Below are positions 1,099 to 38,217 of a stretch of 41,794 nt of DNA, piece after piece (positions within the stretch are counted from its first letter, which is position 1; each line of letters starts with the position of its first letter). This stretch comes from Rhodocyclaceae bacterium (GTDB taxonomy: Bacteria > Pseudomonadota > Gammaproteobacteria > Burkholderiales > Rhodocyclaceae), in assembly GCA_030682175.1 (NCBI GenBank), contig JAUXOM010000092.1, positions 1 through 41,794 on the forward strand. Direction: 5' to 3'. The translations under genes were made by a program, and so were the position numbers. The notes beneath the pieces are model-generated. The model saw only the letters and a program-made list of their open reading frames with translations, had not been told where the DNA came from and ran no database searches.

Positions 1099-1758
1099 TC
1101 ACCTGCTCCGCTCGTTGCCCCACAGGAGCTTGTGCATCTGTAGCTGGAAGCGCACCGGCAAGCGATCCTCGATGATCCATGCGGCAAGCTGGGCGGGGGA
1201 CAGTGCGTCCCATACCGGTGAAAACAGCACGGGACAGCGAGTGAAAAGTCGGCGCTGGCGGGACGCCGCGACTGCCCACTCGTAATCGGCACGTGAAGCC
1301 AGCACGAACTTGATTTCGTCGGATGGACGCAGAAGCTCGATATTCTCCCAGCGATTTCTTTCGCTCTCGCCGGAATCTGGCGCCTTCAGATCGACGATAC
1401 GCGCGACGCGCGTATCGACAGCACCGATATCGAGTGCGCCAGAGGTCTCAAGAGATACGGAATAACCCGCGTCGCAAAGTGCTGATAGAAAAGGCAGGCA
1501 GTTAGGCTGCGCCAAGGGTTCGCCGCCGGTGACGCAAACGGTCGGGCAAGCCATGGTGGCTAGACGCTCCATGATCGCGCCGATTGATAAATGCTCGCCA
1601 CCGCTAAAGGCATAGGTAGTGTCGCACCATGTGCAGCGCAATGGACAACCGGTGAGACGAATGAATACGGTGGGTAGTCCGACGCGCGTCGATTCGCCTT
1701 GCAGCGAATGGAAAATCTCGCTGACGCGCAGGGTGACTGACGCGTCTGACTTTACCAC
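1099..1758 (-). CDS. queE: 7-carboxy-7-deazaguanine synthase QueE (radical SAM)
   Basis: QueE is a radical SAM enzyme that contracts 6-carboxytetrahydropterin to 7-carboxy-7-deazaguanine, the step before QueC. The 219-residue protein carries the CX3CX2C cluster motif as CPLRCTWC (Cys38, 42, 45), and SLQGEST, a substrate-loop motif, near residue 20. The best start is GTG at 1758, 7 nt after the cpoB stop, with CAGG just upstream. A dispersed repeat copy lies antisense within the gene (1244-1270) and encodes SRQRRLF near residues 163-171, in the variable stretch before RCPVLFSPV. The conserved motifs on either side are intact, so the gene looks functional. Confidence 0.95.
1244..1270 (+). repeat. 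dispersed repeat copy 1 (inside queE)
   Basis: Copy of the short repeat with core AGTCGGCGCTGGCGGGACG, here followed by CCGCG. It is antisense to queE and is read through as SRQRRLF without breaking the frame. Confidence 0.8.
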
Positions 1759-1765
1759 CTGAAGC

Positions 1766-2521
1766 TCACCGTCGTTTCTTTGGGGCGAGTGCTTTCAGGC
1801 GCGCACGGGCTGTCTCGGCCGCCGAACTGGCTGGATATTTCTCGACCAGCGTTTCCAGCACTGCTATGGCGCCCTTGTCGTCCTTTACTTCGAGCAAGGC
1901 ATTCGCTTGAGCGAGCAGAGCATCGGGTGTTCTTGGGTCGGTAGGCCAAGTGGCTGCAACCTGCGCGAAAATGGTCGCAGCCTTGGCATACTGTTTTTGC
2001 TGATAAAGACTGGAGCCCAACCAGTAATGGGCGTTGGGGAGCAGCCCGGACTTGGCATGCTGGGCGATGAAGCTTTCGAAGGATGTCTGGGATTCCCTGA
2101 ATTTGCCAGTACGGAAATGACCCAGTGCGATCTCGTAATCGCGCATTTCCGCTTGCGGGTCTGACTTGGCCTCGGCTGGAGCAGTTGCGGTCGTGGCGAC
2201 GGCCTCAAGTTTGCGCAAGCGGTTGTCGAGGTCGACGTAAAAATCCTGCTGACGCTTGTGTGCGGCGTCAAGTGAGTTGCTCAACACCTCGATCTGACCG
2301 GTCAGGCGCGCCACGCTGGTACGCAATGTCTCGGCCTGATTGGAAAAATCGAGCTGGTTCTGGGTGGCTCCGTCAACGCGACGCGTCAGCGCCTCCTGGG
2401 TTTGCTTAAGCTCGGCACGCAATTCCGCGATCTGCCGGCGCGCTTCGAGGTCGTCGAAGAGGCCGGCGTACGCCGGTGTAACCAGCGCAGCACAGATCAG
2501 GAGGCATGCAAGGCGCGACAT
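1766..2521 (-). CDS. cpoB: Cell division coordinator CpoB (YbgF), periplasmic TPR protein
   Basis: CpoB is a periplasmic partner of TolA that links outer-membrane constriction with peptidoglycan synthesis at the septum. The 251-residue product has a Sec signal peptide ending in TPAYA (about residues 15-19). An N-terminal coiled-coil region rich in Gln and Glu (about 25-110) follows, then three TPR-like repeats from about residue 130 (for example HFRTGKFRESQTSFESF and LPNAHYWLGSSLYQQKQY). It follows pal with only a few bases between, its usual place in tol-pal operons. The DNA of the signal peptide (2463-2476, CCGGCGTACGCCGG) is palindromic, but it encodes a normal cleavage region. Confidence 0.94.
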   Translation of the reverse strand: MSRLACLLICAALVTPAYAGLFDDLEARRQIAELRAELKQTQEALTRRVDGATQNQLDFSNQAETLRTSVARLTGQIEVLSNSLDAAHKRQQDFYVDLDNRLRKLEAVATTATAPAEAKSDPQAEMRDYEIALGHFRTGKFRESQTSFESFIAQHAKSGLLPNAHYWLGSSLYQQKQYAKAATIFAQVAATWPTDPRTPDALLAQANALLEVKDDKGAIAVLETLVEKYPASSAAETARARLKALAPKKRR

Positions 2522-2524
2522 GGC

Positions 2525-3073
2525 TCAAAACTCTCCAGCGTAGAGCATGTCGCCGCGGCGATTTTGTGCCCAGCAGGATTCGGATTGTTCCATGCAGGCG
2601 GGCTTTTCTTCGCCCAGGCTGACCGACTCAAGCTGCGCCTCTTTGGCACCCAGCAACAGCAGGGCTCTCTTGACTGCTTCGGCGCGTTTCTGGCCGAGGG
2701 CGAGGTTGTATTCGCGGCTGCCGCGTTCGTCAGCATGACCCTGGATCAGCATCTTCATCTGGCCATTCTGGAGAAGAAATTTAGCGTGGTGGTCAAGCAA
2801 GGACTTGAACTCATCCTTGACAACATAGCTGTCGTAGTCGAAATAAACGCTGCGCTTGGACAATGGGCTCTTCGGGTCCTTGAGGGCGGCGATGCCATAC
2901 TGATCGGCTTGTCCCGCCGTGACGGGTGTTACGGATGAAATTGCTCCGGGGGTGCGATCTTCGACGCCGGCACCAGCCTGCTCGGGAGCAGCGGGCTGGC
3001 TGCTGCAAGCACCGAGGCTAACAAGGGCGGCAATAAGCAGCAACGCGGAAGAAAGAGAAAATGTTTTAGACAT
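2525..3073 (-). CDS. pal: Peptidoglycan-associated lipoprotein Pal
   Basis: Pal is an outer-membrane lipoprotein that binds diaminopimelate in peptidoglycan and is recruited to the division site by TolB. The 182-residue product has a lipobox LVSLGAC with Cys23 as the lipidation site. Its OmpA-like domain runs from about residue 80 (VYFDYDSYVV, then GHADERGSREYNLALGQKRA). The start is ATG at 3073, because AAGGAAC sits 7 nt upstream. A TTG two codons earlier would be too close to that site. It lies between tolB and cpoB in the Tol-Pal operon. Confidence 0.96.
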   Translation of the reverse strand: MSKTFSLSSALLLIAALVSLGACSSQPAAPEQAGAGVEDRTPGAISSVTPVTAGQADQYGIAALKDPKSPLSKRSVYFDYDSYVVKDEFKSLLDHHAKFLLQNGQMKMLIQGHADERGSREYNLALGQKRAEAVKRALLLLGAKEAQLESVSLGEEKPACMEQSESCWAQNRRGDMLYAGEF

Positions 3074-3115
3074 GAGCAAGGTTCCTTATGAATTAGAGCG
3101 GTGAATGTTTCAAGA

Positions 3116-4390
3116 TTACTTGTTGAATGGTCCCCACGCTGGCTCGCGGACGTCAGCAGCTTGTACCGAAAGGCGATGCTTGACGCGGCCATCGGTGGAT
3201 ACGGCGGCGAGCACGCCGCGTCCGCCGACTTCCGTGGCAAACAGGATCATGCGTCCGTTCGGGGAAAAACTGGGCGACTCGTCCTTGGCTGTATCGGTAA
3301 GAATCAGCTTCTGGCGTGATGCGAGGTCCATCACGGCGACCCGGAAGCGGCCACTGTCGCGAGTGACAAACGCCAGACTCTTGCCGTCCGGCGAAAGTCG
3401 TGGCGTGACGTTGTAACTGCCTTCAAAGGTAACGCGTTGCGCTGTGCCGCCCGCAACGGGCTGACGGTAAATCTGCGGACTGCCGCCGCGATCCGAAGTG
3501 AAGTAGATGAACTCGCCGTCGGGTGAAAACTGCGGTTCGGTATCGATGCCGGAAGACGAGGCCAGACGGGTAACACCGCTGCCATCCACATTGACGACAT
3601 ATAGCTGGGAGTTGCCGTTCTTGGTCAGCACGACGGCCAATTTGGTGCCGTCAGGCGACCAGGCGGGTGCCGAATTCGAGCCCTTGAAATTGGCCGCGAC
3701 GTGGCGCCGGCCGGTTGCCAAGTCGTGCACATAGACAACCGGTTTCTTTGCTTCGAAGGAGACATAGGCCAGCCTGCTGCCGTCGGGAGACCAGGTTGGC
3801 GAGATGATCGGTTCGCGCGAAGCCAGGGCAACCTGCGGGCCATTGCCATCGGCATCGGCAATCTGCAATTCGTAACGTCCGGTGCTCTTCATCACATAAG
3901 CGATACGTGTCGAGAAGATGCCGCGCTCACCGGTGATCTTCTCGTAAATGATGTCGGCAACCCGATGTGCCGTGGTGCGGATCTGCGTGGCGTTGTGTGC
4001 CAGCCCCTGCCCGGCGATAGCGGTTTGCTTCTGGGTGTCGTGGAGGCGAAAGCGCGTTTCGTAACGGCCATCGCTGGTGACATTGACACTGCCAGCGGCC
4101 AGTGCATCGGCACCACGTGTCTTCCAGTCAACATAGTTGGGCACGCTGGTTTCGTTGAGTAGCGCACCGGTGGTATCGATGATCTGGAACAGGCCACTGC
4201 GCTCGAGGTCGGAGCGCACTACCGAAGTCAGTGCTTGGGCAAGGACGCGCTCGCCACCAAAATCGCTGACCGCCAGCGGAAAGCGCTGGGCGCCGGCGCC
4301 GGTAATTTCAATGGAAAGCTGCGCCTGGGCGAGAAGCGTAAAGCAAGCCAGCAATCCACCGGCCAGCCATCTGAGACTAAATGTTTTCAT
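3116..4390 (-). CDS. tolB: Tol-Pal system periplasmic protein TolB
   Basis: TolB is the periplasmic protein that binds Pal and TolA and hands over Pal during outer-membrane constriction. The 424-residue product has a signal peptide ending AQA near residue 23. Its N-terminal domain contains LAVSDFGGERVLAQALTSV. A C-terminal six-bladed beta-propeller shows repeated SPDG units (SPTWSPDGSRLAYVS, APAWSPDGTKLAVV, EPQFSPDGEFIYF, TPRLSPDGKSLAFV). AGGAG precedes the ATG. Length is typical for the family. Confidence 0.97.
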   Translation of the reverse strand: MKTFSLRWLAGGLLACFTLLAQAQLSIEITGAGAQRFPLAVSDFGGERVLAQALTSVVRSDLERSGLFQIIDTTGALLNETSVPNYVDWKTRGADALAAGSVNVTSDGRYETRFRLHDTQKQTAIAGQGLAHNATQIRTTAHRVADIIYEKITGERGIFSTRIAYVMKSTGRYELQIADADGNGPQVALASREPIISPTWSPDGSRLAYVSFEAKKPVVYVHDLATGRRHVAANFKGSNSAPAWSPDGTKLAVVLTKNGNSQLYVVNVDGSGVTRLASSSGIDTEPQFSPDGEFIYFTSDRGGSPQIYRQPVAGGTAQRVTFEGSYNVTPRLSPDGKSLAFVTRDSGRFRVAVMDLASRQKLILTDTAKDESPSFSPNGRMILFATEVGGRGVLAAVSTDGRVKHRLSVQAADVREPAWGPFNK

Positions 4391-4458: not shown

Positions 4459-5211
4459 TCAGTTGTCCAGGGGGCGGAATTTCAGTTCCAGCGTGCGGCT
4501 GAAGAGATCGCTCTTCGCTGGTTTCGGTAAGGGACTGGACTTGCGGATCGCGCGTTCCGTGGCGGCATCATAGGCGGGATGTCCGGAGGTTTTGACCAGG
4601 CGGACATTCAGCACTTCGCCGGAAGGCAATTGATTGACCTCGAAGATGGCTTCGGGATTGCCACGGATATCGGGAGGCAGGACAAGGTTGCCGCGCACCT
4701 TGCCGCTGATGGCGGCGATGTATCTGCTCATGTCGCTTGCCTCCACGGCACTCGCCTGCTGGGCCTTCAGGTTTTCATGTTCCTGGGCGGCCGCTTTCAC
4801 CGCCTTGAGCTTTTCCAGTTGCTCGGCTTCGCGCTTGAGCTGCTCCTGAAAAGGGTCTGGCGCCGGCTTGGGTACGGGCTTGGGCTCTGGTTTGGGTTCC
4901 GGCTTGGGCACGGGTTTTGGCGGTGGCTTGGGCTTTTCCTTTTGGGCAATCTCGGGTTTCGGCGGCGGCTTGAGCAAAGGCTCCGGCTTCGGCTCGGGCT
5001 TGGGTTCCGGTTTGGGTTCGGGCGCTGGCGCGGAAGTCGGCGCTGGCGGAACGGCGCGCACCAGTTCGACTTCAACCACGTCCGGCGGGTCGGTGCGCCA
5101 ACTGATGCCGTAGATCAGAAAAATGACCAGCAGGAGATGCATCAGCACCGCCAGCACAAAAGAAATGCGCTTGCCGGGAGGCTTGCGTGGTGCAGCTGGC
5201 GCTTCGGTCAT
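4459..5211 (-). CDS. tolA: Tol-Pal system protein TolA
   Basis: TolA spans the periplasm and passes proton-motive energy from TolQR to TolB-Pal. The 250-residue product has one membrane segment (about 16-37). A long Pro/Lys/Glu-rich stretch of PKPEP repeats (about 60-125) follows, then an alpha-helical region, then a C-terminal TonB/TolA-type domain ending LELKFRPLDN. The Pro/Lys/Glu repeats are normal for short betaproteobacterial TolA. A dispersed repeat copy (5032-5058, antisense) encodes VPPAPTS at about residues 54-60, between the membrane segment and the Pro-rich rod. A 46-bp gap with GAGCGCAGCGA separates it from tolR. Confidence 0.94.
   Translation of the reverse strand: MTEAPAAPRKPPGKRISFVLAVLMHLLLVIFLIYGISWRTDPPDVVEVELVRAVPPAPTSAPAPEPKPEPKPEPKPEPLLKPPPKPEIAQKEKPKPPPKPVPKPEPKPEPKPVPKPAPDPFQEQLKREAEQLEKLKAVKAAAQEHENLKAQQASAVEASDMSRYIAAISGKVRGNLVLPPDIRGNPEAIFEVNQLPSGEVLNVRLVKTSGHPAYDAATERAIRKSSPLPKPAKSDLFSRTLELKFRPLDN
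5032..5058 (+). repeat. dispersed repeat copy 2 (inside tolA)
   Basis: This matches the AGTCGGCGCTGGCGGGACG core with one change (GGAACG in place of GGGACG). It is antisense to tolA and is translated as AVPPAPTS, a different frame from the copies in queE and ruvA. Confidence 0.75.
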
Positions 5212-9015: not shown

Positions 9016-9618
9016 TCAGGCCTTGGCCAGTGATTTCAAAGCTTGACGGATGCCGTCGGAGACGCCGATGCCGGCGGGCAGGGTTTTGGTGGCGCCCAGC
9101 GCCTCGCGGTCGTTGTAGCCCAGCGCCAGCAGCGCGTTGAGGATATCGCTCAGCGTGTCATGGGCATCGGGAAGCGCCGTCCCGCCAGCGCCGACTTTTG
9201 CAACGCCGAGACCGCCCACCGGCAGCTTGCCCTTGAGTTCGAGGAGCAGTCGTTCGGCGGTTTTCTTGCCGATGCCGGGAATCCTCACCAGCCGCGCGGT
9301 TTCCTGCAGTGCGACAGCCTGGGCAAGTTCGCCCACCGAGAGGCCGGACAGCACCGCCAACGCCATGCGTGCGCCGATGCCGGAAATTTTCAGCAACTGG
9401 CGGAACAGCGCCCGCTCTTCATGGGTGAGGAAACCGAAGAGCAGATGGGCATCCTCGCGCACCACCAGATGGGTGACGAGCGCCACGGACTCACCGGTCG
9501 CCGGCAGGTTGTAAAACGTGCTCATCGGCACGTCCACCTCGTAGCCGACGCCGCCGACATCGATGAGGATCTGCGGCGGGTTTTTTTCCAGCAGCTTGCC
9601 GGCAATGCGACCGATCAT
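9016..9618 (-). CDS. ruvA: Holliday junction DNA helicase subunit RuvA
   Basis: RuvA is a tetrameric protein that binds four-way junctions and loads RuvB. The 200-residue product has an N-terminal OB fold ([28 protein letters not shown]), paired helix-hairpin-helix motifs ([14 protein letters not shown] and [21 protein letters not shown]) and a C-terminal RuvB-binding domain (about 155-200). A dispersed repeat copy encodes KVGAGGTA at about residues 139-146, in the flexible linker between domains II and III, where length variation is tolerated. The ATG overlaps the ruvC stop. Confidence 0.97.
9176..9204 (-). repeat. dispersed repeat copy 3 (inside ruvA)
   Basis: Full match to the core AGTCGGCGCTGGCGGGACG, in the sense orientation of ruvA. 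It is read as KVGAGGTA in the domain II-III linker, the same frame as in the YjgR-type ATPase gene. Confidence 0.85.
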
Positions 9619-10145: not shown

Positions 10146-10996
10146 CGTCGCGCAAGATACACGCCCCACACCGCGAGCGCCATGCCGAACAAGGCAACGC
10201 CGCTCAGGGTTTCACCGAAGATCAGCCAAGCCAGCAATGCCGTGGTCGGTGGCGTGAGATAGAACAGGCTGGCGACATTGACGGCATTGCCGTGGCGGAT
10301 CAGCCAGTTGAGCAATGAGATGGCGCCGACCGAGAGCACCAGCACCAGCCAGCCCAGCGCGAAGACGAATTCGCCGGTCCAGTCGATGCGGATGCCGTCC
10401 TGCATGGCGACGATTGCCCCGGTGACGAGCGCGGTCGGGATGAACTGGAGGACCGCGCCGCTGCGCCAGTCGAAGCTGGGACAGAAGCGTTTTTGGTACA
10501 GAGTTCCGGCGGTGATGCCCAGCAGTGCGGCAAACGCCGGCCACAGCGCATCGAGCGCAAAGCCACTGCCCAGCTTGCCCGAAACGACCAGCGCGACGCC
10601 GACAAAGCCGAGCAGCAGGCCGATCCACTGGCGCGACCGGATCACTTCGCCCAGCAGCCAGCCGGCGACCGTGGCGGTCAGCAGCGGTTGCAGGCCGACC
10701 ACCAGGCTGGTGATGCCCGCCGGCAAGCCCTTGCCGATGGCGACAAAGACGCCGCCCAGATACAGCCCATGCACCAGCAGGCCGCTGACGCCGACGTGAA
10801 ACCAGATCCGGCCATCACGCGGCCAGGGTGCGCGCCAGAGCAGCGCGATGCTGGCCATCAGGCCGATGACCAGCAGGTAGCGAACGAACAGGAAGCTCAG
10901 CGGTGCCGCGTGCGGCAGGCCGAGCTTGGCACCGATGAAGCCGGTGCTCCACAGCAAAACGAACAGGAAGGGGGCCAAGCGTGCCATGGGAGCCAT
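10142..10996 (-). CDS. EamA/DMT-family transporter
   Basis: The 284-residue protein has about ten hydrophobic segments arranged as two EamA repeats. It starts [20 protein letters not shown], a common DMT-family opening, and has WLLGEVI and AWLIFGETL at equivalent places in the two halves. The substrate cannot be told from sequence. It overlaps ruvC by ATGA, so it is probably the first gene of the ruv-tol-que cluster. ATG at 10996 or 10987 could be the start; neither has a strong ribosome binding site. Confidence 0.88.
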
Positions 10997-11000
10997 TAAC

Positions 11001-11117
11001 GTGAAATACGCAATTTGACGCCGAGTTCGTTGATGAGCGCAGCGAACAAACTATGACCCCCGCCTCGGGGCGGGGGCTGGGGGTGGGGGGCGTCGATTGC
11101 CTGTTGCGTATTTCATG
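11001..11117. repeat. 117-bp element with terminal inverted repeats
   Basis: The element begins with GTGAAATACGCAA (11001-11013) and ends with the near-exact inverse TTGCGTATTTCATGC (11103-11117). The inner parts GACGCC and GGCGTC continue the pairing. Inside are GAGCGCAGCGAAC and a GC stem CCCCCGCCTCGGGGCGGGGG, the two modules of the GC-stem/GCTCGCTGCGCTCG family. It fills the gap between yebC and the EamA gene. It has no coding capacity and looks like a MITE. Confidence 0.65.
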
Positions 11118-11208
11118 CACGGGGGTGGCGCTATCGACCATGAAAGTCAGGGGAAAGTCGGCGTGACCGAAGGGAATCCCCTTTTCGGGACTGGCGGGCC
11201 GGCGCTGC

Positions 11209-11934: not shown

Positions 11935-12063
11935 GAAAACTGCTCCGAAATTTTAGGTGGGCCATTTTACGTCACCCGACAGTGGTCGGAACCCCTCTAC
12001 ACTGCAGTTCCGGCGCCGGGCCGACCCAAACCGGAACGACACGCGGCGCCAGCCGCAATCCGC

Positions 12064-12150
12064 ACGTTAGCTTCTACGGAGTCGCCCGTGATACACGAGC
12101 GCAGCGAGCAACAGTCACCCCCCATCCCCGGGAAGGGGGGCCGGGGGGGA
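12064..12150. repeat. GC-stem + GCTCGCTGCGCTCG repeat, copy A
   Basis: On the minus strand this reads as a GC stem (12117-12140), then GGGTGACTGTTGCTCGCTGCGCTCG, then TGTATCACGGGCGACTC. The same order is seen at 20742-20799 and 41592-41648. Here the left part is translated as the C-terminal tail of the nucleotide cyclase and supplies its stop codon. The remaining gap to yebC (11935-12063) shows TAAAAT boxes upstream of yebC but no clear -35. Confidence 0.75.
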
Positions 12151-13533
12151 TGGGGGCCTGATTTCGACGATCTCGGTCACTGACAGGGTGGCGATGTCAT
12201 GCAGTTTTTCCATGCGTGCGCCCTCTTGTTCGAGCAGCGACGACATCTGGGAGAAACTGGAGGAAACAAAAACTTCCCGGCCTTCGGGGGCGCGGCGGCG
12301 GACGCCATAGACGACGCGGTTGCGTTCCTCCGGCGGCAGCCTGCTGATCAGGCTCTTGGTGACCCAGATGCTGCCATGGCGGGCAAAATCGGAGATCCGC
12401 GCCGCCTGGTTGATGGTGTCGCCGAGCACGACGAATTCGACGCTGGTCGGTGACTGATAGGTGCCCAGCCACTCCTGGCCTTCGGTAATGCCGGTGTTGA
12501 GAAACAGCTCGTTGAACCACTGCTTGCGCAACTGCCAGGCCTTGGACAGGCGCTGGATCTCCTTGCGGATGTCCTGCGCACAGGCCAGTGAGTTGGCCAG
12601 ATAATCGCTGTCCGGCTGCGGGAAGAAGTAATACACCAGACCGTCGCCGACATGCTTGCCGCAGGTGCCGTGGTGTTTGCGGAAAATCGGCGCCAGGACC
12701 CTCCAGATTTCGTTGATCAGCTCGAAATATTCCGCGGGCGGAAGTTCCGAGCAGATCTTTGCCGAACCCTGCAGGTCGGACACCAGCACGGCCAGTTGCG
12801 TCAGCACCGGCAGGCGCTTGCGCAGCAGGCCGCGGATGATTTCGTCGCGACGCGCCAGCAGATCGAGCATTTCGTTGGCGTACCCGGCTTCGGGGATCAA
12901 GGCGATGAAGATGCCTTCGCGAAAGAACGTCGCGTAGGCGGTATGAAACTGTTCGACCTCCCTGGTGGCCGCGTTGCCGGGCAGGATCACGGTTGATTGA
13001 ACGACGGGGCGCACCGGCTCGGCCACCGTCTCGATATAGGCGGCTTGCAGCCGCGCATAGGCGACCGGGTCAAGCCCGCGGCACAGATTGCCGAAGCTAT
13101 CCGGGCTCAGGCGGGACTTGGCGAGTCCGACGTGAAAGTTCAGCAAGCTGCCCCACTCGTTACGCCCCACCGGCAGCAGGCGGAACAGGTTGCGTGCTTC
13201 ACTGGTCTGCGGCAGATCCGGATGCCCGCCAAAAAAACGTTGCTGGGCATGTTCGTTGATCCATACCAGTTCGAAATTCTGGTTGATCATGTAGGCCGGG
13301 TATTCGATGCTGTCCAGCGTCAGATGCAGCGTCGGGGTGTGGGCCTGTGGCGTGGCGGCTGTCGGCCTGAGTGGCGTCGCGCTGTGCGCGGTGTCTGAAT
13401 TTGGCGTGGAGTTTGGGGTGGCGGGCTCGTCACCGCTCAGGCGATCAATGATCTGAGTCATGCTGAGCCCCTTCTGCTTGAGTCGCCGCACCTCTTCAAT
13501 GCGGGGCGACATACTTTCCGGAATTGGTTTCAT
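12115..13533 (-). CDS. Class III adenylate/guanylate cyclase with N-terminal HTH-like and PAS-like regions
   Basis: The 472-residue protein is predicted to make a cyclic nucleotide. The C-terminal half holds a class III cyclase domain. The first metal-binding Asp is in VLVSDLQGSAK (Asp253) and the second in GKHVGDGLVYYF (Asp297). The substrate segment is VEFVVLGDTINQAARISDFA. The N-terminus has a short helix-turn-helix-like stretch (IEEVRRLKQKGLSMTQIIDRL), a Pro/Thr-rich linker, then a PAS-like region (about 70-105, YPAYMINQNFELVWINEHAQQRF). No membrane segment is seen, so it is probably cytoplasmic. ATG 13533 is chosen; ATG 13512 has GGAAAG near it and is an alternative. The last dozen residues (PPSPPAPLPGDGG) come from a repeat element. 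Whether it makes cAMP or cGMP is not decidable here. Confidence 0.85.
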   Translation of the reverse strand: MKPIPESMSPRIEEVRRLKQKGLSMTQIIDRLSGDEPATPNSTPNSDTAHSATPLRPTAATPQAHTPTLHLTLDSIEYPAYMINQNFELVWINEHAQQRFFGGHPDLPQTSEARNLFRLLPVGRNEWGSLLNFHVGLAKSRLSPDSFGNLCRGLDPVAYARLQAAYIETVAEPVRPVVQSTVILPGNAATREVEQFHTAYATFFREGIFIALIPEAGYANEMLDLLARRDEIIRGLLRKRLPVLTQLAVLVSDLQGSAKICSELPPAEYFELINEIWRVLAPIFRKHHGTCGKHVGDGLVYYFFPQPDSDYLANSLACAQDIRKEIQRLSKAWQLRKQWFNELFLNTGITEGQEWLGTYQSPTSVEFVVLGDTINQAARISDFARHGSIWVTKSLISRLPPEERNRVVYGVRRRAPEGREVFVSSSFSQMSSLLEQEGARMEKLHDIATLSVTEIVEIRPPSPPAPLPGDGG

Positions 13534-13754: not shown

Positions 13755-15308
13755 ATGAGCGCTCCGCTAGTCATTGCCAAGCAAATTCAGGCCAACACCC
13801 AAGAACTTGTCCTGCTGCCGGCCTTCGCCAATCGTCACGGTCTGATCACCGGTGCCACCGGCACCGGCAAGACCGTCACCCTGCAGCGCCTGACCGAGCA
13901 ATTCTCGGCCATTGGCGTGCCGGTGTTCCTCGCCGACGTCAAAGGCGACCTTTCCGGCCTCGGCGCGGCGGGTGTGGCATCGGACAAGCTGCAAAAGCGC
14001 CTCGACGCCCTCGGCATCACCGACTGGCAGCCGTGCGCCAATCCGGTGGTGTTCTGGGATGTGCTGGGCAAGTCCGGTCACCCGGTGCGGGCGACGATTT
14101 CCGACATGGGGCCGCTGCTGCTGGCGCGCCTGCTGGGACTCAACGAAACGCAGGAAGGGGTGCTGCAGATCGTCTTTCGCGTTGCCGACGACGGCGGCCT
14201 GCTGCTGCTCGACCTCAAGGACCTGCGCTCGATGGTGCAGCATGTCGGCGAAAACGCCGCCGAATTCAAGACGAAGTATGGCAATGTTTCGGCGGCCTCG
14301 ATCGGCGCCATCCAGCGCGGCCTGTTGACATTGGAAGCGCAGGGCGGGGATCGCTTCTTCGGCGAACCGATGCTCGACATCGCCGACCTGATGCAGACGC
14401 AGGACGGCCGCGGCGTGGTGAACATCCTCGCCGCCGACCAGTTGATGAACTCACCCAAGCTTTACGCCACCTTCCTGCTCTGGCTGCTGGCCGAACTCTT
14501 CGAGCAGCTGCCCGAGGCCGGCGACCTGGAAAAGCCCAAGCTGGTGTTTTTCTTCGACGAGGCGCATCTGTTGTTCGACGATGCGCCGGCGGCGCTCATC
14601 GACAAGGTGGAGCAGGTGGTGCGGCTGATTCGTTCAAAAGGCATTGGCATTTATTTCGTTACGCAGAACCCGCTCGACGTGCCGGACAAGGTGCTCGGTC
14701 AGTTGGGCAACCGCGTGCAGCATGCCCTGCGCGCCTTCACGCCGCGCGACCAGAAGGCGGTCAAGGCGGCGGCCGAGACCATGCGTGCCAATCCAGCCTT
14801 CAACGCCGTGACCGCGATCACCGAACTGGGCGTCGGCGAGGCGCTGGTGTCCTTCCTCGACGAGAAGGGCAGGCCGCACGTCGTCGAGCGCGCCTTCGTG
14901 CTGGCGCCGGGCTCGCGTCTGGGTCCGCTCACACCGGCTGAGCGGGAGGCGACGATCAAGTCCTCCCTGCTGTTCGGCCACTACGAGAAAACGGTGGACC
15001 GCGAATCAGCCCATGAAATACTGGCCGCGCGTGCCGCTGCCGCAGCCCCGGAACAGAAAGTCGGCGCTGGCGGAGGTTTGGCGTCCCGCCAACAGAAAGT
15101 CGGCGCTGGCGGGACGGCGCCCCAGTCGGCAGAGGCCGGCGGCGGTGCGGTCAGCGACATCCTCTTCGGCCGCACCGGACCGCGCGGCGGACAGACCGAC
15201 GGCCTGGCGCAGACGATGGCCAAGACGGTGGTGCGCAGCATCGGTTCGCAGGTCGGGCGTGCCATCATGCGCGGCGTGCTGGGTTCGCTGCTCGGCGGAC
15301 GCCGTTGA
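13755..15308 (+). CDS. YjgR/DUF853-type HerA-like ATPase
   Basis: The 517-residue protein has Walker A GATGTGKT (33-40), DVKGDLSGL and Walker [14 protein letters not shown]. These match the HerA-like DUF853 family (E. coli YjgR), whose function is poorly known. ATG at 13755 ([12 protein letters not shown]) is the family start; the open frame upstream to 13608 has no homology-like character. Near the C-terminus (about 434-456) two copies of the dispersed repeat encode QKVGAGG twice, in a Gly/Ala-rich linker before the conserved tail [21 protein letters not shown]. The upstream neighbour is divergent, so a promoter should lie in 13534-13754; none is clear. Confidence 0.9.
15057..15077 (+). repeat. 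dispersed repeat copy 4 (inside YjgR-type ATPase gene)
   Basis: Left part of the core (AAAGTCGGCGCTGGCGG), in frame as KVGAGG. Between this and the next copy lies GCGTCCCGCCA, an inverted fragment of the same repeat's right part, so the pair may have arisen by inverted plus direct insertion. Confidence 0.8.
15096..15119 (+). repeat. dispersed repeat copy 5 (inside YjgR-type ATPase gene)
   Basis: Exact full-length copy of the repeat, including the flanking AAA and GCG. It is in frame as KVGAGGTA, 39 bp after copy 4 and hence in the same frame. Confidence 0.88.
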
Positions 15309-20652: not shown

Positions 20653-20904
20653 GTGTAGTCGCCCGCCCCCCTTTGTGCGCCGTTGGCGCATCCCTCGCTT
20701 TGCTCGGGACCGCAGCTGCGCAGCGTCCTGCGGCCTGGTGCCCCCTCGCGGGGGGTTCTTAACGGCTCGCTGCGCTCGTCTATTACGGGGCGCCCCCGTT
20801 CATGCTTTGGCGCGGATTGCGGCTGGCGCCGCGTGCCGCCTTGCCCTGGGGCGGCCCGGCGGCAAGGCTACTGCTGAATTGTGCCGTCCCGCTAGCGCCG
20901 ACTT
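20653..20904. repeat. repeat-filled gap including GC-stem + GCTCGCTGCGCTCG repeat, copy B
   Basis: The gap between the convergent cyclase and metF genes is made of repeats. These are GCGCCGTTGGCGC and CCCTCGCTTTGCTCGGG hairpins, then the GC stem CCCCCTCGCGGGGGG (20742-20756) followed by TTCTTAACGGCTCGCTGCGCTCG and TCTATTACGGGGCGCC. More GC hairpins follow up to 20882, then a dispersed-repeat copy. No gene was seen. Confidence 0.7.
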
Positions 20905-20908
20905 TTAC
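20883..20908 (-). repeat. dispersed repeat copy 6 (at metF 3' end)
   Basis: Copy with one change (GCTAGCG for GCTGGCG), in the sense orientation of metF. The metF stop TAA overlaps the left AAA of the repeat. Confidence 0.8.
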
Positions 20909-21738
20909 CTGGCCAAGTTCAGCCGCCGCACGATTTCCATCGACAGCGTCGCCTGATTCAACGTGTAAAAGTGCAGGCCGGGCGCGCCCAGGTCGAGCAG
21001 GTGCTGGCAGAGCTCGGTGACCACGTCGAGGCCGAAGGCGCGAATCGAGTCGCTGTCGTCGCCGAAGCTCTCGAACTTTTTGCGCATCCAGCGTGGAATC
21101 TCCGCGCCGCTGCTGTCGGCGAAGCGCGCCAGTTTGCTGAAGCTGCCGATCGGCATGATGCCCGGTACGATGGGGATGTCGATGCCCAGCGCGCGCGCTT
21201 CATCGACAAAGTGGGCATAGGCGTCGGCGTTGTAGAAAAACTGGGTGATCGCCGCGTTGGCGCCGGCAGCCACCTTGCGCTTGAAATTGGCGAGGTCTTC
21301 GCGCGGCGTTTTCGCCTGCGGGTGCCATTCGGGATAGGCGGCCACCTCGATGTGAAAGCTGTCGCCGGTTTCGGCGCGAATGAACTCGACCAGTTCGTTG
21401 GCGTAGCTGAATTCGCCGGCATCGGCCGTGCCCGAGGGCAGGTCGCCGCGCAGTGCGACCAGGCGGCGGATGCCGTGGGCGCGGTAGCTATCGAGAATTT
21501 CGCGGATGCCGGCGCGGGTGGAGCCGACGCATGACAGGTGCGGTGCCGCGGCATGCCCTTCGGCGGCGATCTCCATGATGATGTCGAAGGTGCGCTCGCG
21601 CGTCGAACCGCCGGCCCCGTAGGTGACGGAGAAAAAGCTCGGCTTGAGCGTGGCCAGGCGGGCGCGTACGCCGCGCAATTTGGCGAGGCCCTCGGCTGAC
21701 TGGGGCGGGAAGAATTCGAAGGAGATTTCCTGTTTCAT
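20905..21738 (-). CDS. metF: 5,10-methylenetetrahydrofolate reductase MetF
   Basis: MetF is an FAD enzyme that makes 5-methyltetrahydrofolate for methionine synthesis. The 277-residue product opens EISFEFFPPQSAEGL, the family signature, and has FFSVTYGAGGSTRERT, the folate/FAD-binding LVALRGDLP, and AAITQFFYNADAY. Length is typical of bacterial MetF. It is downstream of ahcY on the same strand and probably shares its SAH-responsive leader, but a strong palindrome lies between them. Its stop codon falls at the edge of a dispersed repeat. Confidence 0.96.
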   Translation of the reverse strand: MKQEISFEFFPPQSAEGLAKLRGVRARLATLKPSFFSVTYGAGGSTRERTFDIIMEIAAEGHAAAPHLSCVGSTRAGIREILDSYRAHGIRRLVALRGDLPSGTADAGEFSYANELVEFIRAETGDSFHIEVAAYPEWHPQAKTPREDLANFKRKVAAGANAAITQFFYNADAYAHFVDEARALGIDIPIVPGIMPIGSFSKLARFADSSGAEIPRWMRKKFESFGDDSDSIRAFGLDVVTELCQHLLDLGAPGLHFYTLNQATLSMEIVRRLNLAR

Positions 21739-21773: not shown

Positions 21774-21827
21774 GTAGGTCGGGCGCAAGCCCGACAAGCG
21801 TGGCAGTCGGGCTTGCGCCCGACCTAC
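21774..21827. repeat. REP-like palindrome between ahcY and metF
   Basis: Two perfect 22-bp inverted arms (21774-21795 and 21806-21827), starting GTAGGTCGGGCGCAAGCCC, flank a 10-base loop. A partial third copy of the arm (GGTAGGTCGGGCGAAC) lies at 21756-21770. This GTAGGTCGGGC type is a widely dispersed REP class. In the mRNA it would form a very stable hairpin between ahcY and metF, which may protect the upstream message or reduce readthrough. Confidence 0.85.
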
Positions 21828-25674: not shown

Positions 25675-26544
25675 ATGACCCGCCTCACCCTCGCTCTCAT
25701 GTGGCTGCTGCATTGGCTGCCGCTGCCGCTGCTGGCGGCATGCGGCCGTTTCTTCGGCCGCCTGTTTCATGCCTTCGGCCGGCATCGCCGCCATGTCACC
25801 CTGACCAATCTCGGTCTGTGCTTTCCGCAACTCACCGCGGATGAAAAGTCGGCGCTGGCGCGACGGCACTTCGCGGCTTTCGGCCGCAGCTTTCTCGAAC
25901 GCGGGCTGTTGTGGTGGGCGCCGCCGGCGCGCATCCGGCGTCTGGTGAAGATTGCGGGCATGGAGCGGCTGACCGCGCTCAAGAACCGGCCGGTCATCCT
26001 GCTGGTGCCGCATTTCGTCGGCCTCGACATGGGCTGGACGCGGCTGGCGCTGGAACTCGACATGGTCAGTATTTACGCCAATCAGAAGAACCTGCTGTTC
26101 AATGCCGCGCTGTATCGCGGCCGGCTGCGCTTCGGCGGCTCGGAACTGTTCTCGCGCCAGGAGGGCACCCGCAAGGCCATCAAGGCGATGAAGGCCGGGC
26201 GGCCGTTCTACTATCTGCCCGACATGGATTACGGCGAGCGCGACACCATCTTCGTGCCGTTTTTCGGCGTGCCGGCGGCCACCATCACCGGCCTGTCGCG
26301 TCTGGCACGCATGGCCGGGGCGGTGGTGCTGCCGGTGGTCACCCGCATGACCAACGAAGGGATTTGCGGCTATGTCGTCGAGATCGGCGAGCCGTGGGGC
26401 GACTATCCCGGCGCCAGCATCGAGGCCGATACGCGGCGCATGAATGCCTTTGTCGAGGCGGAAATCCTCAAGATGCCGGAGCAGTATTTCTGGCTGCACC
26501 GGCGCTTCAAGACACGGCCCCCCGGAGAAAAACGGCCGTATTGA
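25675..26544 (+). CDS. Lipid A biosynthesis acyltransferase (LpxL/LpxM family), second copy
   Basis: The 289-residue enzyme has an N-terminal hydrophobic helix, TLTNLGLCFPQLTADEK, the HX4D active-site motif HFVGLD near residue 112, and YYLPDMDYGERDTIFVPFFG. A near-match to the dispersed repeat (25844-25868) encodes KSALARR at about residues 57-63, a frame not used by the other copies. ATG 25675 is preferred over an overlapping GTG. Its last 18 bp, ending in the stop region (26528-26545), are repeated at 26602-26619 beyond a hairpin insert. Confidence 0.92.
   Translation: MTRLTLALMWLLHWLPLPLLAACGRFFGRLFHAFGRHRRHVTLTNLGLCFPQLTADEKSALARRHFAAFGRSFLERGLLWWAPPARIRRLVKIAGMERLTALKNRPVILLVPHFVGLDMGWTRLALELDMVSIYANQKNLLFNAALYRGRLRFGGSELFSRQEGTRKAIKAMKAGRPFYYLPDMDYGERDTIFVPFFGVPAATITGLSRLARMAGAVVLPVVTRMTNEGICGYVVEIGEPWGDYPGASIEADTRRMNAFVEAEILKMPEQYFWLHRRFKTRPPGEKRPY
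25844..25868 (+). repeat. dispersed repeat copy 7 (inside acyltransferase gene, weaker)
   Basis: Matches AGTCGGCGCTGGCG and GACGGC with one base changed between (GGCGCGACGGC). It is read as KSALARR. Similar residues are common at this place in the family (ADEKxALARRHF), so chance convergence is possible. Confidence 0.5.
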
Positions 26545-26642: not shown

Positions 26643-26668
26643 ATAATCGGCGCTGGCGGGACGGCGTA
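26643..26668 (+). repeat. dispersed repeat copy 8 (dapF leader)
   Basis: The core TCGGCGCTGGCGGGACGGCG is intact, with its left end altered to ATAA. It ends 10 nt before the dapF ATG, so it forms the translation initiation region of dapF. Confidence 0.82.
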
Positions 26669-26678: not shown

Positions 26679-27542
26679 ATGAAGATTCATTTCACCAAAA
26701 TGCACGGTCTGGGCAACGACTTCGTCGTGCTGGACGCCGTGCGGCAAAATTTTGTCCCCACGCCGGTGCAGGTGCGCTGGCTGGCCGACCGGCATTTCGG
26801 CATCGGCTGCGATCAGCTTCTCGTCGTCCAGCCGCCGCAGCGCGAGGACGCCGATTTCCGCTATCGCATCTTCAATGCCGATGGCGGCGAGGTCGAGCAA
26901 TGCGGCAACGGCGCGCGCTGCTTCGTGCGCTTCGTCCATGAACAGGGTCTTGCGACGCAACGCAGCATCTGTGTCGAGACGCTGGCCGGACTGATTGTAT
27001 TGTGCCTTGAAGACGATGGCCAGGTCACGGTCGACATGGGCGTGCCGCGTTGGCTGCCGGCCGACATTCCGTTTCTGGCCGACAGCGACGACCTGCTGCA
27101 AAGGCTTGAATTTGCCGGACGCAGCGCTGTCATTAGCGCCGTGTCGATGGGCAATCCGCATGCCGTGCAGGTGGTCGACAACGTCGCTATCGCGCCGGTG
27201 GCGCGCGATGGTCCGCTGATCGAGGCGCACCCGAGCTTCCCCAGGCGCGTCAATGCCGGCTTCATGGAGATTGTCGATCGTCACGCCATCCGGCTGCGCG
27301 TCTTTGAGCGCGGCGCGGGCGAGACGCTGGCCTGCGGCACGGGTGCCTGCGCCGCCGTGGCGGTGGGGGTGCGGCGTGGCCTGCTGGATTCGCCGGTGCG
27401 TGTCACCACCCGCGGCGGCGAACTCACCATTGCCTGGGGCGGCCTGGGTCAGCCGGTGTTGATGACTGGTCCGGCAGTCACCGTGTTCACCGGTGAAATT
27501 GAACTTCCCGGCAAATTAAACGAGGAAAATCCATGCCCCTAG
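26679..27542 (+). CDS. dapF: Diaminopimelate epimerase DapF
   Basis: DapF interconverts LL- and meso-diaminopimelate for lysine and peptidoglycan synthesis. The 287-residue product opens [17 protein letters not shown]. It has the two catalytic cysteines in [10 protein letters not shown] and [10 protein letters not shown], and substrate-binding MGNPHAV. The ATG at 26679 is the family start. No good ribosome binding site is seen; a dispersed repeat lies immediately upstream. The gene overlaps the next by 10 nt. Confidence 0.96.
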
Positions 27543-30531: not shown

Positions 30532-30558
30532 CGCCGCCCCGCTAGAGCCGACTTTCTG
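30532..30558 (-). repeat. dispersed repeat copy 9 (degenerate, after rlmI)
   Basis: On the minus strand it reads AAAGTCGGCTCTAGCGGGGCGGCG, three changes from the core. It lies in the 245-bp gap before the PEP-CTERM gene. The gap otherwise holds CGCCGTCCCCATGACGGCGG hairpin sequence and the promoter of the next gene. Confidence 0.6.
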
Positions 30559-34886: not shown

Positions 34887-35690
34887 TCAATGGACATGGG
34901 TGCGGCCAAAAACCACCACGGCGATGCCGGCGGCCAGCAACAGGCCGTGCCAGCCGACGGATTTGGTTTCACGTTTCAAGCGTGGCATCAGGTCGGCGAT
35001 GGCAATATACAAAAAGCTCGCTGCCGCGATGGTGATGATGATCGGTATCCAGTTCTGGGCGCGCTCCAGTGCCAGAAAACCGACAATGCCGCCGAATATG
35101 GCCGTCAGGCTGGAAACCCCGTTCCAGAAGAGCGCCCGGCTGCGGGTCCAGCCCGCCGCGAGCAGGATGGCGAAATCCCCGGCCTCCTGCGGCACTTCGT
35201 GGGCGATGATCGCCAGCGTGGCGGCCCAGCCGAGCATCGGGTCGGCGAGGAAGGCCGCCGCAATGAGCAGGCCGTCGGTGAAGTTGTGAAAGCCGTCGCC
35301 GATCAGGATCAGCAGGGTTTCGCCGCGCGGGTCGTGCAAATGATGATGGCTGTGGGTGTGGTCGTCGCAGTGCTGGTCGCCGCAATGCGCGTCGGTTTCA
35401 CCGGCCCCGGCGTGGGTGTGCCGCCAGAGGGCGAACTTCTCCAGGGCGAAAAACCCGAGGATGCCGGCCAGCAGCAGCGGAAAGACTTCGTGCGGGGTCA
35501 GGCCGGATTCCAGCGCTTCAGGCAGCAGATGCAGGGTGGCCGTCGCCAGCAGCAGACCGGTGGAAAAACTGACCGTCAGCCCCAGCCACTTCTTCGGCAG
35601 ACCGAACATCACCAGCGCGGCGGCCGCGACGCTGAGCAGGCCGCCGAGCAGGCAGGCGAGGGTGATTTGAACGATCAGGGGCAGTTGCAT
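34887..35690 (-). CDS. ZIP-family metal (zinc) transporter
   Basis: The 267-residue membrane protein has about eight helices. A His-rich loop (about 95-125, HCGDQHCDDHTHSHHHLHD) and the two ZIP metal-site helices with IGDGFHNFTDGLLIAAAF and AIIAHEVPQEAGDFAILL are diagnostic. ATG 35690 is the family start. It diverges from the Zur-like gene with a near-perfect palindrome between them, so zinc-dependent repression of both is expected. Confidence 0.94.
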   Translation of the reverse strand: MQLPLIVQITLACLLGGLLSVAAAALVMFGLPKKWLGLTVSFSTGLLLATATLHLLPEALESGLTPHEVFPLLLAGILGFFALEKFALWRHTHAGAGETDAHCGDQHCDDHTHSHHHLHDPRGETLLILIGDGFHNFTDGLLIAAAFLADPMLGWAATLAIIAHEVPQEAGDFAILLAAGWTRSRALFWNGVSSLTAIFGGIVGFLALERAQNWIPIIITIAAASFLYIAIADLMPRLKRETKSVGWHGLLLAAGIAVVVFGRTHVH

Positions 35691-35757
35691 GGCAGCACGC
35701 CGGAAAGGCGGCGGGATCAGGGTGATGAGCGACCGCAATTGAAGCACAGCATTTCTG

Positions 35758-35780
35758 CAAATGCAACAATGTTGCATTTG
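35758..35780. promoter_or_regulatory. probable Zur box
   Basis: A 23-bp palindrome made of CAAATGCAAC, the spacer AAT and GTTGCATTTG lies in the divergent region between the ZIP and zur genes. Its AT-ended, TGYAAC/GTTRCA-like symmetry is of the kind seen in proteobacterial Zur and Fur boxes. It ends 26 bp before the zur ATG and 67 bp before the ZIP ATG, so one site could control both. Confidence 0.75.
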
Positions 35781-35806
35781 ATGTCGGGCTATGGTTTCAT
35801 GGCCGC

Positions 35807-36253
35807 ATGACTGGCAAGCCGAAAATCTCCCCCTCATCCGAGCAGATTCGCGCCGCGGGCGTCAAGGTGACGCGGCAGCGGGTGCGCGTGCTGGATGCCT
35901 TGCTGGCGGCGCGCCAGCCGCTGTGTCATGGTGAATTGGAGAGCCAGCTCGGTGGTGCGGAAGCGGGGAGCCGACGTGTGATCGACCGGGTGACGCTGTA
36001 TCGCGTGCTCGACTCGCTGGTTGCCTGCGGGCTGGCAATGCGGGCGGTCGATCCCCGCGGGGTTTTCCGTTTTTCTGCGACGGGTGCGCCGCGGCAGCAC
36101 GCCGGGCATGTGCATTTCCGTTGCACCGATTGTGGCGGGGTGTTCTGCCTCAAGGCCGAGCCGCCGCCGCCGCCGGCATTGCCGCGTGGATTCAGGCTGG
36201 CGCAGGTCGAGTTCGACGTGCGCGGCACCTGCGCACAGTGCGGCGCACGGTAG
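35807..36253 (+). CDS. zur: Fur-family zinc uptake regulator (Zur)
   Basis: The 148-residue protein has a winged-helix DNA-binding region (GVKVTRQRVRVLDALL, then RVTLYRVLDSLVACGLAMRA) and a metal/dimer region with HAGHVHFRCTDCGGVFCL and CAQCGAR, giving the two CX2C structural zinc pairs. Context (divergent ZIP gene, zinc operon behind it, palindrome between) favours Zur over Fur or PerR. No strong ribosome binding site is seen before the ATG. Confidence 0.87.
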   Translation: MTGKPKISPSSEQIRAAGVKVTRQRVRVLDALLAARQPLCHGELESQLGGAEAGSRRVIDRVTLYRVLDSLVACGLAMRAVDPRGVFRFSATGAPRQHAGHVHFRCTDCGGVFCLKAEPPPPPALPRGFRLAQVEFDVRGTCAQCGAR

Positions 36254-36290
36254 AATTCACGCCACTTTCCTCATTCCTTGAAGGCCGAGC

Positions 36291-36827
36291 ATGGAGCAAT
36301 ATCACGGCACCACCATATTGTCGGTACGGCGCGGCAATGTCGTTGCGCTGGGCGGCGACGGCCAGGTCACGCTGGGCAACATCGTCATCAAGGCCGGGGC
36401 GCGCAAGGTGCGCCGTCTTTACAGCGAGCGCATCCTCGCCGGCTTTGCCGGCGGCACGGCCGACGCGTTTACCTTGTTCGAGCGTTTCGAGGCCAAGCTG
36501 GAAAAACATCAGGGCAATCTGCTGCGCTCCGCCGTGGAACTGGCCAAGGACTGGCGCACCGACCGCATGCTGCGGCGGCTGGAAGCGATGCTGGTGGTGG
36601 CCGACCGCGACAATTCACTGGTGATCACCGGCAACGGCGATGTGCTGGAGCCGGAACTGGGCATTGCCGCCATTGGCAGCGGTGGGGCTTACGCCCAGGC
36701 TGCCGCGCAGGCGCTGCTGGAAAATACCGAGCTGGCGCCGCTGGAGATCGTGAAAAAATCGCTGTCGATCGCCGGCGACCTGTGCATCTACACCAACCAG
36801 AATCACATCATCGAGACGCTGGACTAG
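36291..36827 (+). CDS. hslV: ATP-dependent protease subunit HslV
   Basis: HslV (ClpQ) is the threonine peptidase of the HslUV protease. The 178-residue product begins [14 protein letters not shown], where cleavage before TTI exposes the catalytic Thr. GDGQVTLGN and the [14 protein letters not shown] region follow. It sits 28 nt before hslU, the standard operon order. Confidence 0.97.
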
Positions 36828-36855
36828 TTTCCCCGCGTCCGCTTTCCGGATAACC

Positions 36856-38217
36856 ATGACCCCAATGACCAGTCAGATGACCCCGGCCGAGATCGTCTCG
36901 GAACTCGACAAGAATATCGTCGGCCAGGCGCGCGCCAAGCGCGCGGTGGCGATTGCCCTGCGCAACCGCTGGCGACGTTCCCAGGTGGACGAACCGCTGC
37001 GTTCCGAGATCACACCCAAGAATATCCTGATGATCGGCCCGACGGGGGTCGGCAAGACCGAGATCGCGCGGCGACTGGCGCGCCTGGCCAACGCACCGTT
37101 CATCAAGGTCGAGGCGACCAAGTTCACCGAGGTCGGCTATGTCGGCCGCGATGTCGACAGCATCATCCGCGACCTGGCCGAGACGGCGGTGAAGGATGAG
37201 CGGGTGAATGCGATGCGCCTGGTGCGCGACCGCGCGCTCGACGCCGCGGAAGATCGCATTCTCGATGTGTTATTGCCGCCGGCAAGAGTCGGCGCTGCCC
37301 CGGCCTACGCCGGGGTGACAGAGACGGTGCCGGAGGAATCGACGACGCGCCAGAAGTTCCGCAAGAAGCTGCGCGAGGGCGAGCTCGACGACAAGGAGAT
37401 CGACATCGAGGTCAGTGCGCCTGCGGCGAGCATGGAAATATTCGCCCCGCCAGGCATGGAGGAGCTGACGCAGCAGATTCAGGGCATGTTCCAGAACATC
37501 GGCGGCGGCAAGAAGAAGACGCGCCGCATGCGCATCGTCGACGCCCTCAAGGCGCTGACCGACGAGGAAGCGGCACGGCTCATCAATGATGAAGAAATAA
37601 AAGCAACCGCGATGAAGAACGTCGAGCAGAACGGCATTGTCTTTCTCGACGAAATGGACAAGATCGCCTCGCGCAGCGAAACGCAAGGGGCCGATGTGTC
37701 ACGCCAGGGCGTGCAGCGCGACCTGCTGCCGCTGGTCGAAGGCACGACGGTGACGACCAAGTTCGGCATCATCAATACCGATCACATCCTGTTCATCGCC
37801 AGCGGGGCATTCCATTTCGCCAAGCCATCCGACCTGATTCCCGAGTTGCAGGGGCGCTTCCCGATCCGCGTCGAGCTGGACTCGCTCTCGATCGACGACT
37901 TCGAGTGCATTCTCACCCAGACCGACGCCTGCCTCACCCGCCAGTACGCGGCCTTGCTGGCCACCGAAAACGTGACGGTGGAGTTCGCGGCCGATGGCAT
38001 CCGGCGGCTGGCGCAAATTGCCTTCGAGGTGAATGAGAAAACCGAAAACATCGGCGCGCGCCGCTTGTATACGGTGATGGAAAAGCTGCTGGAAGACGTT
38101 TCGTTCTTTGCCGGTGCATCAGCCTCTGAAGCTGCGTTGACAGTCGATGCCACCTACGTCGATGAGCGCCTCGCCGAACTGGCGCAGCGCGAGGATCTGT
38201 CGCGTTACGTGCTCTAG
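36856..38217 (+). CDS. hslU: ATP-dependent protease ATPase subunit HslU
   Basis: HslU (ClpY) unfolds substrates for HslV. The 453-residue product has Walker [10 protein letters not shown] (about 61-69), the pore motif [10 protein letters not shown], Walker [12 protein letters not shown], and a C-terminus ending LSRYVL, the tail that inserts into HslV. At about residues 143-156 the I domain begins with [16 protein letters not shown], which comes from repeat DNA (37284-37321). Other HslU proteins have variable sequence here, and the family motifs are intact. It is about ten residues longer than E. coli HslU. Confidence 0.97.
37284..37321 (+). repeat. dispersed repeat copy 10 (composite, inside hslU)
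   Basis: AGAGTCGGCGCTG, the left half of the short repeat, is joined to CCCCGGC-CTAC-GCCGGGG (a 7-bp hairpin) and TGACAG. It is in frame and encodes [12 protein letters not shown] at the start of the I domain. Confidence 0.75.

Follow-up and report, generated by a model that had tools for sequence, protein, structure and literature searches.

The stretch of DNA analyzed here (the window) comprises positions 1 to 41,794 of contig JAUXOM010000092.1 from a Rhodocyclaceae bacterium (GenBank assembly GCA_030682175.1), and it carries ten copies, one of them a half copy, of a short dispersed repeat that we regard as a candidate DNA uptake sequence. Genomes, contigs, loci and genera are given as G, C, L and g numbers, G000 being the window's own genome (3,493,354 bases in 153 contigs). 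Seven copies, counting the half copy, lie in coding sequence and three outside genes (Table 1). The TolA family score of the TolA/TonB-type gene falls slightly below the family cut-off; the AAA ATPase gene holding the half copy adjoins a gene for a proteasome-family subunit, and we read the two as HslU and HslV. An initial annotation, made from the letters alone, had proposed such a repeat, and its positions (the 24-mers start no more than one base from where it had placed them), its seven coding copies and the peptides KVGAGG, VPPAPTS, SRQRRLF, KSALARR and RVGAA all agree with what we find.

Table 1. Copies of the repeat, followed by other features of the window
Feature	Position	Strand	Context
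Copy, 1 mismatch	1245..1268	+	antisense in queE (QueE-type radical SAM gene, 1099-1758 minus); SRQRRLF
Copy, 2 mismatches	5033..5056	+	antisense in TolA/TonB-type gene (4459-5211 minus); VPPAPTS
Perfect copy	9175..9198	-	sense in ruvA (9016-9618 minus); KVGAGGTA; linker preceding C-terminal domain
First copy of composite, 3' end unmatched	15057..15080	+	in HerA/YjgR-type ATPase gene (13755-15308 plus)
Second copy of composite, perfect	15096..15119	+	39 nt downstream of the first, same frame; KVGAGGTA
Copy, 2 mismatches	20882..20905	-	directly after MTHFR gene (20905-21738 minus); one base common to the stop codon
Copy, 2 mismatches	25845..25868	+	in lipid A acyltransferase gene (25675-26544 plus), read in a second sense frame; KSALARR
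Intergenic copy, 2 mismatches	26643..26666	+	upstream of DAP epimerase gene (26679-27542 plus)
Copy, 3 mismatches	30532..30555	-	3' of methyltransferase gene (plus, ends 30490)
5' half copy	37285..37300	+	in HslU-type ATPase gene (36865-38217 plus); RVGAA
HslU-type copy with an in-frame 21-nt stretch (palindrome CCCCGGCCTACGCCGGGG)	37285-37321		the stretch splits the copy from its 3' end and is not present at this site in G006
Extra core match, doubtful	29675	-	without AAA head; not in the initial annotation
Dispersed repeat of about 155 bp	10996-11150		
Separate dispersed repeat with word GCTCGCTGCGCTCG	12014-12157, 20765-20861, 41579-41647		
Terminator-like perfect 22-nt inverted repeat	21774-21827		10-nt loop

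The repeat is real, and larger than the window alone could show. A 19-nt core (up to 3 mismatches) matches the window nine times as against a mean of 0.11 in 100 dinucleotide shuffles, none of which reached nine, and across G000 it occurs at 659 places (338 forward, 321 reverse) as against 5 (3 forward, 2 reverse) for a reversed-pattern control. Within 376 predicted genes (the window and 20 segments) there are 54 matches, where four codon-order shuffles gave 0, 2, 0 and 1. This comes close to a check asked for in the initial annotation, and neither of the two outcomes that it had named as refuting was seen. One could envision that Gly/Ala/Pro linkers in a GC-rich genome merely converge on similar DNA at the level of protein or codon usage, and the commonest in-gene frames (KVGAGGTA in sense, AVPPAPT in antisense) do encode small or proline-rich peptides; however, the codon-order shuffles rule such an artifact out, and it is also hard to square with the near-empty reversed control, with the 35 of 68 copies called intergenic in a G000 sample, with the use of all six reading phases by the in-gene copies of that sample, and with the lack of copies in genome G011 and in 85 of 150 family genomes, leaving it with next to no credibility. 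The tolerance of several reading frames that had been noted in the window extends to every phase in the G000 sample.

Taken as a whole, the repeat unit spans 24-25 nt and forms a sharply bounded motif of two blocks, AAAGTCGGCGCTGG-CGGG-ACGGCG, its non-palindromic 24-nt layout consisting of AAAGTCNNNNCYGG, about four variable bases and then ACGGC. Twenty stretches of G000 (400 kb) contain 109 copies with up to 6 mismatches and 2 matches to the reversed control; positions 1-15 and 19-24 are conserved, positions 16-18 are looser, and the flanks are near random except for an A-rich position 0. The same motif emerged from 400 kb of G018 (89 copies; control 3), with these differences: position 4 is looser, the last base is A, and a C comes next in 71%. 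Pieces of the motif rank first among 11-mers in the samples of G000, G018 and G026, and the form peculiar to G062, AAAGTCGACGCTGG, is the top 11-mer there. A role of the single unit as an RNA hairpin or terminator was rejected, as it folds no better than shuffles (z-scores of -0.14 and 0.47; two composites of several units, -1.47 and -0.99). The reverse complement (TGCCGTC) resembles the neisserial DNA uptake sequence (DUS), a curiosity of which we make no use.

Eighteen of the 19 genomes classed in the window's genus hold 153-646 copies each (up to 2 mismatches), and the remaining one, G011, holds none at this threshold. Nine close relatives reached through a neighboring gene (L031-L039) are uncultured, eight titled Rhodocyclaceae and one Proteobacteria bacterium. 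In a tree of 200 columns, essentially RuvA, from which the repeat-bearing linker columns were not removed and in which these can favor a grouping of the bearers, G011 groups with Rhodocyclus (support 0.90) although it is listed under the window's genus, and a split with support 0.96 sets G011 and the outgroups against the copy-bearing genomes, so that the lack of the repeat in G011 is probably original. A search of G011 for another tag yielded as top word ATGAGCGGCAT (10 occurrences, 0.58 expected), far weaker than the repeat of G000. Across the family (150 genomes, 68 genera), the 24-mer is matched at least once, with up to 3 mismatches, in 65 genomes; copies number 184 to 738 in genomes of g1, g2, g9, g38, g46 and g64 and from none to 35 in the rest. 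A two-block pattern allowing one mismatch (control 0-4 per genome) found 30-60 places per genome in g11, in the form AAAGTCAGTCCYGG, 74 in g45, in the form seen in G062, and 11-24 in g66; with a variant pattern allowing no mismatches, applied to 24 chosen genomes, g11 keeps 32-60 and g45 54, while g66 falls to 0-7 and G002 has only 9. In a survey of the order, 29 of 300 genomes had any match, with a maximum of 5 outside the family.

Copies are enriched between genes yet common within them: with up to 2 mismatches, 33 of 68 are in genes in G000 and 31 of 43 in G018, where fractions of 0.82 and 0.84 would be expected. The genes were called with a home-made finder that misses some of them, queE included. 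Of the G000 copies called intergenic (up to 4 mismatches), 36 of 44 sit within an open frame of at least 150 codons on one strand or the other; given the GC-rich DNA, such frames say little for or against a coding location. The density is about one copy per 5.3 kb, with 0 to 9 copies per 20-kb segment, no more even than random, and plus-strand copies number 42 of 89 and 29 of 66. Three of 40 segments contain no copy. Two of these are prophages, one tailed (L109, where phage families were matched by 10 of 10 scanned proteins) and the other Mu-like (L080); the third is a cluster of translation genes (L100, the EF-G/EF-Tu/SecY/RpoA region). Twelve few-copy regions of other genera were fetched, and 20 queries covered 15 different proteins from ten of them. 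Defense genes of the restriction-modification, restriction-helicase or Hma type occur in L315, L318, L320 and L323, a weak LmuB match in L319, and other genes in L316 (cobaltochelatase) and L321 (an ABC protein); of ten PADLOC queries, six gave no match. We take such regions to be footprints of gene transfer. These observations bear on the possibility that the repeat is a chromosomal protein-binding site (a nucleoid organizer, or a segregation or repair signal) kept by selection for DNA binding and with no role in uptake. Two conserved blocks around a loose stretch would suit a binding site, but the near-equal strand numbers found in every copy-bearing genome of the genus (counted genome-wide) and the irregular spacing do not, and the copy-free prophage segments, together with few-copy regions that include restriction and defense genes, are better accommodated by exchange of DNA.

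The initial annotation had taken the repeat for a small mobile or gene-converting sequence, with the Rickettsia palindromic elements as its closest parallel, and several observations invite such a reading, be it of the REP/BIME, miniature inverted-repeat (MITE) or Rickettsia type. In stretches of G018, 15 listed cases (one site twice) have an upstream companion copy, 11 of them at exactly 54 nt; in most of these pairs (L099-L127) an inverted copy lies between, giving a forward-inverted-forward composite, and one composite forms an array (L127 3723/3777). The five companion cases in G000 have other spacings. At L118:1797 a sister genome shows an 18-bp gap at the site, and orientations differ between species at two sites, queE and L132:4425 versus L133:7925. 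Finally, three places of G001 with a variant core, TCGGCGGCTYCGGGACGGC, are sites of normal copies in G018 (the only three in the compared stretches; L067 and L130 are among the G001 places); with up to 1 mismatch, this variant occurs at 26 places in G001, at one or two in 4 other genomes and in none of 14.

Against this, single units have almost nothing in common beyond their 24-25 nt, and most anchored copies align to their orthologous sites without gaps (13 of 17 from G014 to G016, 16 of 18 from G018 to G001). In queE, the motif is reversed in the window and in G003 (G006 has a decayed reversed form with 6 mismatches), forward in G002, G004, G005, G010, G016 and G018, broken in G014, and a forward-inverted-forward triple in G001; yet the linker has the same length, 13 codons, in the window, G003, G002, G011 and two aligned outgroups, so that both orientations occur there without a change in length and no insertion is needed in the window, G003 or G002. 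REP units are hairpins and mostly extragenic; our repeat resembles them in consisting of short dispersed units, some with inverted neighbors in composites, but differs in the folding of the single unit and in that about half or more of its copies are genic. A Y1 (RAYT) transposase domain was found in none of G018, G001 and G011, the first two of which are copy-rich and listed as 100% complete; G000 has three matches. Rickettsia palindromic elements are palindromic insertions of about 100-150 nt. They share with the repeat its in-frame presence within several proteins, but the repeat is far shorter, is not palindromic and sits in queE of three genomes without insertion, and the parallel was therefore not borne out. 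Nor does transposition account readily for a point change that recurs between G014 and G016 from one orthologous copy to another (position 3 is T in G016 and A in G014 at 5 of 13 ungapped copies). We thus set mobility aside as the main process and consider a mobile or gene-converting element quite unlikely as an explanation of the repeat as a whole, although it may apply to composites; as to gene conversion in particular, the variant core at three sites in G001, some gapped anchored sites and the composites speak for it, without making it the main process.

Placement in linkers, another point of the initial annotation, holds wherever orthologues were aligned (ruvA, tolA, queE and herA), and the repeat is absent from the outgroup orthologues seen. 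In ruvA, the linker motif is present in all 17 repeat-bearing genomes with the gene in hand (loci of the same genome counted once), mostly as AAA GTC GGC GCT GGC GGG ACG GCR with varying codons beside it, and it is absent in G011, Rhodocyclus and Accumulibacter, where the linker differs. GCT, a rare codon that the window's genes use for 105 of 1557 alanines, persists in 15 of the 17. The codon heterozygosity of the five repeat columns is not unusual (35 of 44 other columns lie at or below their maximum), and we therefore use only the GCT codon as evidence from ruvA. The tolA motif is reversed and recognizable in at least seven genomes, and degraded or absent in others.

Constraint at the level of DNA was gauged from pairs of genomes, with copies picked by match in the first genome and mismatches counted in ungapped, anchored copies. 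From G014 to G016 (23 copies: 13 ungapped, 4 gapped, 6 not anchored), copies differ by 0.035 per site and flanks by 0.149, and in the reverse direction (12 ungapped, 3 gapped, 8 not anchored) by 0.031 and 0.150; in this well-sampled pair, copies thus diverge about four-fold less than their flanks, which is not so for G018 and G001. The constraint is weaker between G000 and G006 (0.069 versus 0.111 with 6 of 8 copies ungapped; in reverse, 0.042 versus 0.102 with 5 of 9), where the copy in the acyltransferase gene is identical at 24 of 24 positions. Comparisons of G000 with G003 (3 of 8 ungapped; 0.028 versus 0.217), G012 (2 of 8; 0.042 versus 0.143) and G015 (2 of 8; 0.000 versus 0.125) point to constraint as in G014 and G016, on few copies.

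Dialects exist among species of the window's genus and between genera, those of several genomes being called from only 2-5 copies. At position 24, G prevails in G000, G006, G003, G012 and G015, and A in G018, G001, G016 and G005; G014 is mixed. At position 4, a C is seen in 21 of 91 G018 copies, in 3 of 5 from G010 and in 3 of 4 from G002. The four G002 copies all have G at position 19, and 8 of 24 G016 copies have T at position 3. G001 is farther from the consensus than G018 under both selections of copies (2.19 versus 0.94 and 1.46 versus 0.69 strict-core mismatches); this divergence and the variant core may reflect either a changing dialect or a system under relaxation. A binding protein of drifting specificity would also yield dialects, and the constraint on copies in some genome pairs would suit it as well; with strand numbers, spacing and the copy-free segments on the other side, we consider the binding site an unlikely, though not far-fetched, explanation.

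By analogy with systems in which DNA is taken up by sequence, we think it probable that the repeat is a DNA uptake sequence, unrelated to the known ones and unusually long. Under such circumstances, a receptor on the cell surface, part of the type IV pilus/competence machinery, would recognize the 24-mer on double-stranded DNA coming in from outside, and DNA from the cells' own lineage would be favored in import and recombination. New copies would originate, through mutation or through recombination with incoming DNA, wherever the sequence is permissive, as in linkers, at gene ends and between genes; those fitting the receptor's preference would be transferred more often and thus be kept and spread by molecular drive, and as the preference drifted, copies at orthologous sites would drift along into a dialect. 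It is from the abundance, bounds, location, dialects and copy-free prophage segments of the repeat, its conservation in several pairs and comEC in six genomes that we infer uptake, receptor and drive.

Known systems offer both likenesses and differences. DUS have dialects by species and genus (PMC3630211), occupy permissive sites, are stringently conserved, are absent from recently acquired genes and form inverted pairs, and their new copies are described as too divergent for point mutation alone (PMC2397512). The repeat is alike in its hundreds of copies, genic and intergenic (a copy number at the low end for uptake sequences, and weaker over-representation for g11), its permissive sites, dialects and close inverted pairs, and in some genome pairs also in the conservation of copies; as to scarcity in acquired DNA, two prophage segments are copy-free, but unsorted viral contigs hold matches. 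It differs from DUS in sequence and in having 24 nt in two blocks rather than 10-12 nt. The uptake signal sequence (USS) of the Pasteurellaceae, with a 9-nt core, AAGTGCGGT (PMC12616744), occurs dispersed in coding as well as intergenic DNA and within genes prefers certain orientations (PMC2346458); the repeat shares the dispersal and differs in sequence, bacterial class and density. As a two-block motif of 24-25 nt with another sequence, it was therefore filed under neither neisserial DUS nor Pasteurellaceae USS.

Competence machinery is compatible with uptake but not diagnostic of it. ComEC was found in six of six genomes tested, copy-free G011 among them, and a GspH/FimT-type pilin in eight of ten, again including G011, with no match in G028 and G062, both of which have dialects. 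Neither N-methyl pilins nor GspH/FimT-type pilins were retained as the receptor, for they occur with and without the repeat, and no receptor is claimed. A PDB search with the G000 pilin returned 13 sequences (E up to 1), none named ComP or FimT; the best was PilA (3.1e-4), and the rest were mostly pilins, with one unrelated translation factor.

A number of observations weigh against uptake. Known uptake motifs in the cited text are 9-12 nt long (PMC12616744), about half the length of the repeat, and the density is some 5-13 times lower than that given for Neisseriaceae DUS, one per 400-1100 bp (PMC7371117). Copies are no more evenly spaced than random in the 20-kb segments. From G018 to G001 (16 ungapped, 2 gapped, 9 not anchored), copies and flanks diverge equally, by 0.138, and in reverse (13 ungapped, 2 gapped, 3 not anchored) by 0.122 and 0.138. 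The queE linker is longer in G004, G005, G010, G014, G018 and G001, where copies may have been gained with insertion. The dialect words of G028 come no higher than eighth and eleventh in a 100-kb sample of that genome. Although G062 has a dialect of its own, it yielded just two matches for N-methyl pilins and none for GspH, and because ComEC and a GspH/FimT-type pilin are also present in copy-free G011, they do not explain the distribution of the repeat. Lastly, at least 120 stretches of viral contigs hold a match, mostly one each, phage and host DNA being unsorted there; in L156 of that collection (listed loci L136-L215), five matches occur, four of them spaced 316 bp apart. Because of its length, its lower density and the G018-G001 pair, we say that the repeat may work like an uptake sequence, not that it is a member of a known family.

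Among the papers listed in searches of the open literature, no earlier report of an uptake sequence in Rhodocyclaceae or Rhodocyclales was found. With slightly less assurance, we favor the view that Rhodocyclaceae are a third bacterial family with sequence-tagged uptake, having independently evolved an unusually long two-block sequence that falls into about four dialects by genus (g1, g9, g11 and g45), and that in the window's genus dialects are in change, as AATGTC in G016, a GCGGC second block in G002 and the variant core of G001 suggest. If true, a further family would carry self-recognition tags in its DNA, and a further independent case, with many dialects in close genomes, would reveal if the evolution of uptake sequences takes the same course each time and would allow comparison of receptor and motif during drift. 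The motif could also mark which environmental Rhodocyclaceae exchange genes among themselves and serve as a tag for spotting DNA of this origin in other genera.

Other repeats were encountered along the way. Stretches 82-91% identical to the window's repeat of about 155 bp lie in G015, where around a dozen places are listed, and some also in contig C145 of G000, in G012 and in G013. Of the separate repeat with the word GCTCGCTGCGCTCG, the first part in the window has more copies in contigs C61 and C123 of G000. Another over-represented word, CTTGGGGCGGC, occurs in 20 copies in 280 kb of G000 (stretches L076-L089).

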